A stretch of DNA of 64,000 nt from Lachnospiraceae bacterium (GTDB lineage Bacteria; Bacillota; Clostridia; Oscillospirales; CAG-272), in contig JAKSPT010000009.1 of NCBI GenBank assembly GCA_024404495.1, positions 1 to 64,000 on the forward strand, written 5' to 3'. Below are positions 23,974 to 26,737 of the stretch, piece after piece. Below the pieces are notes generated by a model, which did not search any database, was not told where the DNA came from, and saw only the letters and a list, made by a program, of their open reading frames with translations. Within the stretch, counting starts at the first letter, position 1; every line of letters begins with the position of its first letter. Position numbers and translations under genes: made by a program.

Positions 23974-24639
23974 TTATTTCAGAAATGCCGTAACGTAAGT
24001 GACCATTTCCTCTAATTCAAATTGATAACACCAAATCTTATACATATCGCCGTTGTAATTGAATGCAGCAAGGTGTTTCGTTCCGTTCGGTCCGGTTCCT
24101 TCGGCAAAGAAAACCTCAGTACCCGCTATGACCGTCTGTTTGACCGATTCCGGAAAGAAGGAAAGTTCGCTTTCTTTGACGTATTCTTCCGCCGCAATCT
24201 CTTCGTTGAAAACACAGTTGAAGAACACTTCCACGTCCTTTTTGTATGCAACCGAAAGATCGATCATCTTGACCGTTTCAAAATCTTCGATTTTCTTTGT
24301 TCCCTTGGGGCAATAAAGCTTTGCGCTGATCTTGGCGTTCCGGACGTCCGGGATATTCAGAAGCGCGCTGTCTTCAGGGAGCACTTTGCACAGTTCCGGG
24401 AAACTTTCAAACCGTATGACTGTGTCAACGTCCTGAGATTTGAAACGCGCACTCTGGATCATATTGATCATCAAAGGCATACAGAGAACGATCAGTACCA
24501 GGCAGGCGGCAAGCGTACTCCAGGTACGGATGCGCCGTCTGACAAGTCTTGCCTTGAGAGCTTCGCTTCTCTCGGCGTATTCGATCACATATGCGTCATC
24601 GATGTCATTGATATCATACAGTAATTTATTTGCATTCAT
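23974..24639 (-). CDS. Putative membrane anti-sigma factor
   Basis: 221 residues. A cytoplasmic N-terminus (1-38, starting MNANKLLYDINDIDDAYV) is followed by one transmembrane helix (about 40-62) and an extracytoplasmic domain with two or three cysteines (LYCPKG, FFNCVF, KIWCYQ). The gene overlaps the ECF sigma gene by 4 bp (ATGA), the standard arrangement for a cognate anti-sigma factor. No zinc-binding HxxxCxxC motif is seen, so the inhibitory contact is probably of a different class. The local GC is lower than in neighbouring operons, which hints at acquisition by transfer. Confidence 0.7.
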   Translation of the reverse strand: MNANKLLYDINDIDDAYVIEYAERSEALKARLVRRRIRTWSTLAACLVLIVLCMPLMINMIQSARFKSQDVDTVIRFESFPELCKVLPEDSALLNIPDVRNAKISAKLYCPKGTKKIEDFETVKMIDLSVAYKKDVEVFFNCVFNEEIAAEEYVKESELSFFPESVKQTVIAGTEVFFAEGTGPNGTKHLAAFNYNGDMYKIWCYQFELEEMVTYVTAFLK

Positions 24640-25223
24640 ATGTGAATTCCTTCATTCTCAAGATACTCTTTCAGCTCGCCTCTTAATCTCAGAAGAAGCA
24701 TTTTCGTTTTGCTGACAGAGTAGTTCATTTTATCGGAGATCTCCGACACGGAGTCGAAGTACCAGTATCTTCCGACGAAAACCATTCGTTGTTCGGGTGT
24801 CAGTGTCGACAGCCATTTGTTGATGAAATCCCTGCAGGAGATCTCTTCAACGAGCTCCTCGACAGACTGCGGTGAAGTAATGACCTCTTCCAGTTCCTCA
24901 AAGGCAAGGTCGTATTCACCTGATCCGCGTTTTTTTGTTCTTTGTGCTTTGAGACGGTTCAGGGAAAGGTTTCGGACGATCTTTCCCAGAAAAGCCCTCA
25001 GGTTGGAAGGCTTGACCGGCGGAATGGAATTCCAGGTCTGCATATAAGCGTCGTTCACACTTTCTTCTGCATCTTCACGGTTTCGCAGAATGTTTTCGGA
25101 GATCGTAAGACAGTACTTGCCGTATTTCTTGGCTGTTTCGCCGATCGCCGATTCGTTCCGGTTGAAATACAACGTGATTATTTCAAGGTCCTCCGTAGCG
25201 TCTTCCTTTCTCCGCTTTCTCAA
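24636..25223 (-). CDS. ECF-type RNA polymerase sigma factor
   Basis: About 195 residues. Sigma region 2 is seen in ENILRNREDAEESVNDAYMQTWNSIPP (about 43-69) and region 4 in LSTLTPEQRMVFVGRYWYFDSVSEISDKMNYSVSKTKMLLLRLRGEL, a helix-turn-helix. A TTG start at 25223 fits the open frame but has a poor ribosome-binding site; initiation may occur a few codons downstream, after ACGGAGGACC. The upstream element TTGTGACC-N14-GTTGTC also precedes the protease gene, which predicts autoregulation plus control of that gene. Confidence 0.88.
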   Translation of the reverse strand: MRKRRKEDATEDLEIITLYFNRNESAIGETAKKYGKYCLTISENILRNREDAEESVNDAYMQTWNSIPPVKPSNLRAFLGKIVRNLSLNRLKAQRTKKRGSGEYDLAFEELEEVITSPQSVEELVEEISCRDFINKWLSTLTPEQRMVFVGRYWYFDSVSEISDKMNYSVSKTKMLLLRLRGELKEYLENEGIHI

Positions 25224-25240
25224 CCGGCTCTACACATAAA

Positions 25241-25268
25241 GACAACAATCAAATGCGGTTGGTCACAA
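25241..25268 (-). promoter_or_regulatory. Predicted ECF promoter of the sigma/anti-sigma operon
   Basis: On the minus strand, TTGTGACC (-35; GTGACC core at 25266-25261), 14 bp, then GTTGTC (25246-25241), followed by TTTAT. The two hexamers and the spacing are identical at 26610-26635. There is no SigA consensus at this position. Confidence 0.65.
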
Positions 25269-25291
25269 CTTTTTTGCGGTTTTTCAAAATT

Positions 25292-26530
25292 TTAATACTG
25301 GTAAGTATACATACTGCCGAGAATGCCCGAGAAGTAGACCTCTTCTTTGCCCGCAGCACCCAGATGCCCGACGAAATCGTAGCCGGCGAACAGACCGCCG
25401 TACTTATAACCGTAAACCACGAGTGCGTGGCTGCCGAGGCCGTTGACGTGTCCGAACCAGATCACCGGACGGCCTGCGTCGATCTTATTGGCAATGGCGG
25501 TATCGGTGGCAAAAGGCACATACAGCTCGGTATGGGAAACACTGATGCCTCTCGCGGTTAAATAGGTCTGCAGAACGTTTTTAATCTTGCCCGCGTTCGT
25601 ACCGGCGCCGTAGCCCATGCCGACGCCGATATTGTAGAGACCGGTCGGCAGAGCGGTCTTGATGGAATATCTGCCGCTGGAGGACACGGAGTACTGAACG
25701 GGAGTAACGACCGTGTTGCGGATGCCGGCCGCCGTATCGTAGGTCAGCAGGATGCCCGCCGCGATGTAGCCGCACTTGCCGCCGGTGATGTAGCCGCAGT
25801 CGGTCAGATCCGTAAAGAAGGAATAGTTTCTGAGGACGGTCCATTTACCGACCGTAACGGTTTTGCTCGCCGCAGCCGTGAGTGCCGTATTCGCAGCCGC
25901 CTTCACGGGCGCTGCCGTGAGAAGAACGTCGGTCGCGCCGGAAACGTAGTTGAGAACGTTTTCGTTTTTATTCTCTTTCAGGGTCTCGTCCACCCTTCTG
26001 GATTCCTCCGCAAGAACGGGGGTCGAGCGGGCTTCCACGGATGCCTGCTCAATCAGATCGGTGCAGACCGAGTAACGGTCAATGGAGTAATAAGAACCGA
26101 GACCGCCGTATTTCAGGGTTCCCGACTTGCCGTAGTAGGGGGAATGCGACGTGGCGCAAACCTCCGTGAAAATACCGGATTCGTCGTGATAGATCAGATA
26201 GCCGGTAGGAGCGCATTCGATGAGGGTATAGACGTTCCCGTCAAAGTCGGTGATTTTGGTTGCGGAAGCGATCGAAAGGGAGACCTTGGTTCCCCTCAGC
26301 GCTCCGGTATCTTCTTCCAGTTCGCGGATGCGTGCCTTGACCACGGAGTTCAGTCTTCCGAGGATAGCAGAAGCATTGCCGTTTTCGGTGACGTTTTCAA
26401 CTGCCGTTTCGGCGCGGGTCTGTACCGGGATTTTTTTCTCGCTGACTGCAGCCGCTGCGGAAACGAGAGGGAGCGACAGCAGCATGGCAGCTGCCAATGC
26501 GAGCGCTATGACTCTTTTGCTGGTTTTCAT
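25292..26530 (-). CDS. Secreted papain-fold cysteine protease (C39/C10-like)
   Basis: 412 residues. Starts at 26530 (MKTSKRVIALALA...), where AGGAGGAATTT precedes ATG; the longer open frame upstream lacks such a site. A signal peptide covers about 1-28 (ending SAAAA). A propeptide-like region follows to about 200. The catalytic half has DCGYITGGKCGYIAAG with Cys253 as likely nucleophile and GLGSHALVVYGYKY with His368 as likely base, an arrangement typical of C39/C10-type peptidases. The protein ends SMYTYQY. An ECF-type promoter identical to that of the neighbouring sigma operon lies about 75 bp upstream, so it is likely the main target of that sigma factor. Confidence 0.7.
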   Translation of the reverse strand: MKTSKRVIALALAAAMLLSLPLVSAAAAVSEKKIPVQTRAETAVENVTENGNASAILGRLNSVVKARIRELEEDTGALRGTKVSLSIASATKITDFDGNVYTLIECAPTGYLIYHDESGIFTEVCATSHSPYYGKSGTLKYGGLGSYYSIDRYSVCTDLIEQASVEARSTPVLAEESRRVDETLKENKNENVLNYVSGATDVLLTAAPVKAAANTALTAAASKTVTVGKWTVLRNYSFFTDLTDCGYITGGKCGYIAAGILLTYDTAAGIRNTVVTPVQYSVSSSGRYSIKTALPTGLYNIGVGMGYGAGTNAGKIKNVLQTYLTARGISVSHTELYVPFATDTAIANKIDAGRPVIWFGHVNGLGSHALVVYGYKYGGLFAGYDFVGHLGAAGKEEVYFSGILGSMYTYQY

Positions 26531-26609
26531 AAATTCCTCCTGAATCATTCATTATGATTCTGTTTTTGCTTCTATTAATATTCCTAATAAAGGTTCTTTC
26601 ATCTATAAT

Positions 26610-26637
26610 GACAACTTTTTTTCTGCCGGGGTCACAA
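26610..26637 (-). promoter_or_regulatory. Predicted ECF promoter of the secreted protease gene
   Basis: On the minus strand, TTGTGACC (core 26635-26630), 14 bp, GTTGTC (26615-26610), then ATTAT. It matches the sigma operon promoter base for base in both hexamers. The leader to the start codon is about 73 nt. Confidence 0.65.
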
Positions 26638-26689
26638 AAAAAGGAAAAAAAGTAAAATTTTTTCAAAAAATCCAAAAATAACAAATTGA

Positions 26690-26718
26690 GCGCGGATGGA
26701 AAGGGATCCCATCCGCGC
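26690..26718 (-). terminator. Terminator after the GH4 gene
   Basis: GCGCGGATGG pairs with CCATCCGCGC. On the minus strand it is followed by TCAATTTGTTATTTTT, a broken U tract. It lies 20 bp past the GH4 stop. Confidence 0.7.
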
Positions 26719-26737
26719 CCGGAAGCGGGGATGCCGA

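Follow-up and report, generated by a model that had tools for sequence, protein, structure and literature searches.

The window, a stretch of 64,000 nucleotides of DNA, very probably contains an autoregulated module of an ECF sigma factor and its anti-sigma factor, together with one adjacent target dedicated to it. The module joins a one-helix partner in the membrane and an exported protein to the sigma factor, and the analysis of the letters supports their being a unit served by one type of promoter. At this level we can demonstrate the two promoter sites, their membership of a promoter family that extends through the clade, and the fit of residues of the sigma factor to promoter bases. Transcription from the sites, inhibition by the partner, a signal, and peptidase activity of the exported protein are inferred.

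The module and its two promoter sites

All the elements of the unit lie on the minus strand. In the order of transcription a terminator-like hairpin comes first, then site 2 with the exported protein and site 1 with the ECF sigma factor, and last the one-helix protein. The hairpin (26688..26720) lies 3' of an upstream family-4 glycosidase gene, and separates the unit from that gene. No terminator-like site was found on the minus strand between the exported-protein gene and the sigma gene, so that read-through from site 2 is possible, and its transcripts may continue into the sigma operon. The spacing of the genes is as originally described, with the exported-protein gene stopping at 25292 and the first start codon of the sigma gene, TTG, at 25223.

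Site 1, the ECF-type promoter of the sigma operon (25241..25268), has the sequence TTGTGACC-N14-GTTGTC followed by TTTATG, and reads in full TTGTGACCAACCGCATTTGATTGTTGTC-TTTAT from 25268 to 25241. Site 2, that of the exported protein (26610..26637), has the same TTGTGACC-N14-GTTGTC followed by ATTATAGATGAAAG, and reads TTGTGACCCCGGCAGAAAAAAAGTTGTC-ATTAT from 26637 to 26610. Both copies are where the original prediction put them, with hexamers and spacing exact. They are the sole copies of the exact motif in the genome of 2,699,399 bases, and its expectation by chance in the window is 0.00. While all 14 motif bases are the same in the two sites, the spacers agree at just 1 of 14 positions; the sites are therefore not recent copies, and this rules out recent duplication of a promoter fragment. 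We found no SigA-type promoter above chance overlapping either site, in agreement with the absence of a SigA consensus noted before. Between site 2 and the exported-protein gene there is a 16-codon open frame (26552-26602, minus strand; ATGAAAGAACCT...TAA) whose first codon nearly coincides with the predicted start of the transcript from site 2; this probably arises by chance.

The sigma factor is encoded at 24636..25223. It is matched by PF04542 (28.0 bits, cut-off 24) at residues 40-95, by PF04545 (26.3 bits, cut-off 24.1) at residues 137-177 and by TIGR02937 (71 bits, cut-off 42.9). In Pfam and NCBIfam it has sigma2 and sigma4 domains only, connected by a short linker, which is the architecture of the group IV (ECF) sigma factors. 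There are 12 members of its family in this genome at E < 1e-10, including the window sigma itself, and a search of 97 genomes found one or more in 61. Where the gene starts is uncertain: alignment with the paralogs, which have ATG, GTG or TTG there, points to an ACG (25196-25194, minus strand). The ACG is preceded by a Shine-Dalgarno-like stretch, and the TTG at 25223 lacks a good one. The ACG could be a rare start codon, a mutation or an error of assembly.

The membrane partner and the exported protein

The gene for the partner (23974..24639, minus strand) overlaps that of the sigma factor (24636..25223). The protein has about 40 cytoplasmic residues, with its single helix beginning at about residue 43. 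The arrangement recurs at 100 of the 101 loci studied, where the gene after sigma encodes a protein that has a single hydrophobic helix near its start and a common N-terminal motif, lL.AiG.IDD.[LY]I.EA, after which come basic residues before the helix, the whole segment being some 40 residues long. None of the Pfam or NCBIfam models matched the N-terminus of the partner in the sequences scanned. A lower limit of 50 residues has been used for the domains of class I anti-sigma factors (PMC7406223), and the partner, with its segment of about 40 residues matched by neither collection, has no recognisable domain above this length. A class II mode of binding like that of CnrY, with two helices wrapped around sigma2 and sigma4, is possible. 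Of the one-helix anti-sigma factor that had been predicted, the anti-sigma action is less secure, being deduced from position, topology and the N-terminal motif common to the family.

The exported protein (25292..26530, minus strand) has 412 amino acids, a signal peptide, and a cysteine and histidine, Cys253 and His368, expected of a peptidase. Its start had been placed at 26548, but the start with a Shine-Dalgarno sequence is the ATG at 26530 (aggaggaatttATG). We found three distant homologues (26-31% identical), in which Cys253, His368 and His389 are kept, so that the candidate catalytic C253 and H368 are invariant in four sequences. The profile of peptidase family C10 (PF01640) gives a weak match around the His, scoring 23.0 bits where the Pfam gathering cut-off is 26, and it matches none of the three homologues. 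The GW[DN] that follows the last His in the homologues is replaced by GAA in the window protein; one active-site segment has been lost, and peptidase activity is therefore not assured. An AlphaFold model had a mean pLDDT of 39, too low to be of use on the question of a papain-like fold, and searches of solved structures gave nothing credible. The original identification as a cysteine protease thus retains the conserved Cys and His, while the C10 match lies below threshold, and we regard that identity as less secure.

The exported protein has few homologues. A search of 395 genomes in the family found them in 2 others, and a species collection gave 3 contigs, two of which are the same loci. Inspection by eye revealed no ECF promoter upstream of the homologues in three other genomes. 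Control by the window sigma consequently seems to be specific to this lineage, and with homologues both rare and, by eye, lacking the promoter, we reject a conserved pairing of exported protein and sigma factor.

This distribution also bears on whether the exported protein might be part of the switch itself, cleaving the extracytoplasmic domain of the anti-sigma factor outside the membrane to create a positive feedback loop. Proteolysis of the anti-sigma factor is a common mechanism of release, and the adjacency of the genes, the common promoter, export and the peptidase-like Cys/His pair would all be consistent with such a role. Yet the protein stands beside the sigma gene in this lineage alone and 100 of 101 sigma modules manage without it, so we think this unlikely.

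The promoter family and the probable reader of site 2

A promoter matrix was built by EM from 101 sigma upstream sequences, 12 from this genome and 89 from 44 others, with letter-shuffled upstreams as the control. The resulting consensus for the clade is TGTAACC, a spacer of 14 or 15, CGTCTATA, and then GGTGAAAGG; 94 of the 101 upstreams score above the 95th percentile of the shuffled controls. This is the AAC / CGT type of autoregulatory ECF promoter in the clade variant TGTAACC-N14/15-CGTCTATA. The window promoter deviates from it to GACC / TGTC, as expected from residues M175 and N89 of the sigma factor. Site 1 was part of the training set, whereas site 2 was held out, and it scored 27.8 compared with 9.7 at the 95th percentile of the shuffles. 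A sequence-only covariance model made from 42 sigma-operon promoters found just site 1 (18.8 bits) and site 2 (14.0 bits) in the window, the next best place having 4.3 bits.

Promoters of these sigma factors differ within a genome. Across 110 same-genome pairs the agreement never exceeds 11 of 14 positions; of the paralog promoters in this genome the closest to the window motif, that of C23a, has 10 of 14 in common with it. Loop L3 of region 2.3 has been described as reading one flipped base of the -10 element (PMC8103513), and a code relating residues to bases has already been published (Todor et al. 2020, as reported in PMC8103513). In our family the strongest coupling links residues 89 and 92 to positions 1 and 2 of the -10, and residues 174 and 175 to positions 4, 5, 7 and 8 of the -35. 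N89 and K92 are each coupled with T, K174 with C and M175 with G, and these are the specificity residues of the window sigma. The z-scores of coupling are inflated by the relatedness of the sequences, and a fold-wise benchmark is a fairer measure. Training without the genome under test, with 43 promoters and 8.8 correct expected by chance, the code chose the right sigma factor for 39/43 with fixed contacts (picked with all the data in view), for 34-35/43 with 8-20 contacts picked inside each fold, and for 30/43 with 4 contacts so picked. Site 2 was assigned to the adjacent sigma factor in all settings tried, scoring 6.9 against 4.6 for the runner-up C23a, although this margin shrinks to 1.2 bits in one setting. 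The promoter model and the code provide independent comparative evidence for what had been proposed, namely ECF-type promoters, autoregulation, and common control of the adjacent exported protein.

If site 2 were read mainly by a paralog (C23a, perhaps C11b) or by several of them, the sigma factors would form a cross-talking network and not a private circuit. C23a is ranked second by the code and has the same N89, K174 and M175 as the window sigma, with a promoter of its own of the form GCGTGACC..GTGTC, and on its sequence it could cross-react with the window promoters. Against its being the main reader, C23a differs at residues 62, 77 and 92; its residue 92 is R, which goes with G in the coupling, and the promoter of C23a itself carries G in place of the T of sites 1 and 2 and matches the window motif at just the 10 of 14 positions. 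We therefore consider this improbable. That the identity of the motifs is due to chance, or to a copied fragment without function, is scarcely credible, for although there are just two short matches, the expectation in the window is nil, the spacers are unlike at 13 of 14 positions, and the promoter model recovered site 2 without having been trained on it.

We scanned the whole genome with patterns and with the covariance model, as had been suggested. Allowing 1 mismatch to the motif gave two further places, and allowing 2 brought the total to 18, compared with 4 for a reversed control pattern. The pattern TGTGACC-N14-16-TGTC gave two additional places, both GC-rich. A larger regulon was sought in these scans and not found; it appears to be tiny, comprising the sigma operon and the exported protein, with two weaker candidates. 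These are the 1-mismatch sites (L003 at C9:21295-21322 and L004 at C61:3812-3839), both intergenic with the common letters CTTTTTGTGACCTGCG and ATGTTG, and they precede an exported protein and a multi-helix membrane protein, respectively. We treat them as candidates only, because the SigA-like hexamers TTGACT-17-TATAAT and TTGCTT-17-TATAAT overlap them. The covariance model found 9 places in the genome, of which 4, including site 2, are outside sigma operons. As described by eye, the others precede an exported membrane protein (C50:5991), a protein with an internal hydrophobic segment (C25:5623) and, just beyond the window, a serpin-like lipoprotein (L153, G000:C77:66280-66314, plus strand). 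The ECF-like promoter of the last is GCGAAACC..CCGTCTTATATGG, which the code gives to paralog C3.

In many of the relatives (L020-L048, L082-L141) the sigma-operon promoter has an inverted repeat directly 3' of the -10, of the type TGAAAGG.CCTTTCA. The center varies yet remains palindromic (GGCC, GCGC, GAGCTC, GGTACC, GGCGCC, GGACC). Perfect arms of at least 5 occur in 20/88 sequences, compared with means of 5.5-7.9 and a maximum of 15 when the right halves were re-dealt among the sequences; the sequences are related, and the AT-rich flank upstream of the -35 is also rich in inverted repeats (12/88). A search of 97 genomes for the commonest form of the dyad, at up to 1 mismatch, gave 7 places, including four sigma promoters encountered earlier. 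In sites 1 and 2 the dyad is present in weak versions only. On inspection we judged an RNA hairpin unlikely, since the varying center would fall in the loop. A dyad just after the -10 is a possible feature of these promoters, to be taken as no more than a lead.

Proposed mechanism and relation to known systems

In the mechanism that we propose, the one-helix membrane protein would hold the sigma factor at rest through its short cytoplasmic N-terminus, until a signal at the envelope released it. The free sigma factor would act at site 1 to transcribe its own operon, which would give positive feedback and renew the inhibitor, and at site 2 to produce the exported peptidase-like protein.

An autoregulated ECF sigma factor is of a known kind, and the module, though well supported, is in this respect ordinary. 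Here a pair of promoters could be attributed cleanly, by sequence alone, to a single member of a set of 12 paralogous sigma factors, and the residue-to-base code could help to map the regulons of many such factors in related Clostridia. The short anti-sigma motif and the dyad are side-findings that may deserve study of their own. More tentatively, and with more doubt than confidence, we suggest a large undescribed expansion of ECF factors throughout a clade within an order of Clostridia, in which each sigma factor would have a minimal anti-sigma segment of about 40 residues carrying the conserved motif, with its own extracytoplasmic domain, and the dyad at the first transcribed bases would act as an operator or RNA element to give a second level of control.

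The exported protein resembles the streptopain-like peptidases of family C10 in its conserved Cys-Gly and His-Ala, its signal peptide and the weak profile match around the His, and departs from them in scoring below the Pfam cut-off and in having GAA for the GW[DN] segment of its homologues. Compared by topology, the partner is like CnrY, the class II anti-sigma factor of CnrH, in having a very short cytoplasmic segment before a single transmembrane helix; unlike CnrY it carries the motif lL.AiG.IDD.[LY]I.EA, and the likeness is one of topology with no sequence relationship shown. The module as a whole is like RpoE-RseA of E. coli and SigW-RsiW of B. subtilis, with a two-domain sigma factor co-encoded with a one-helix membrane partner, control of its own promoter plus an extra target, and a -10 base tied to residues of region 2 and the -35 to a helix of sigma4. 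It differs from them in that the window promoter is GTGACC / TGTC and not AAC / CGT, in that the cytoplasmic part of the partner has about 40 residues and matched no curated anti-sigma family, and in that the genome of the window has 12 such modules.
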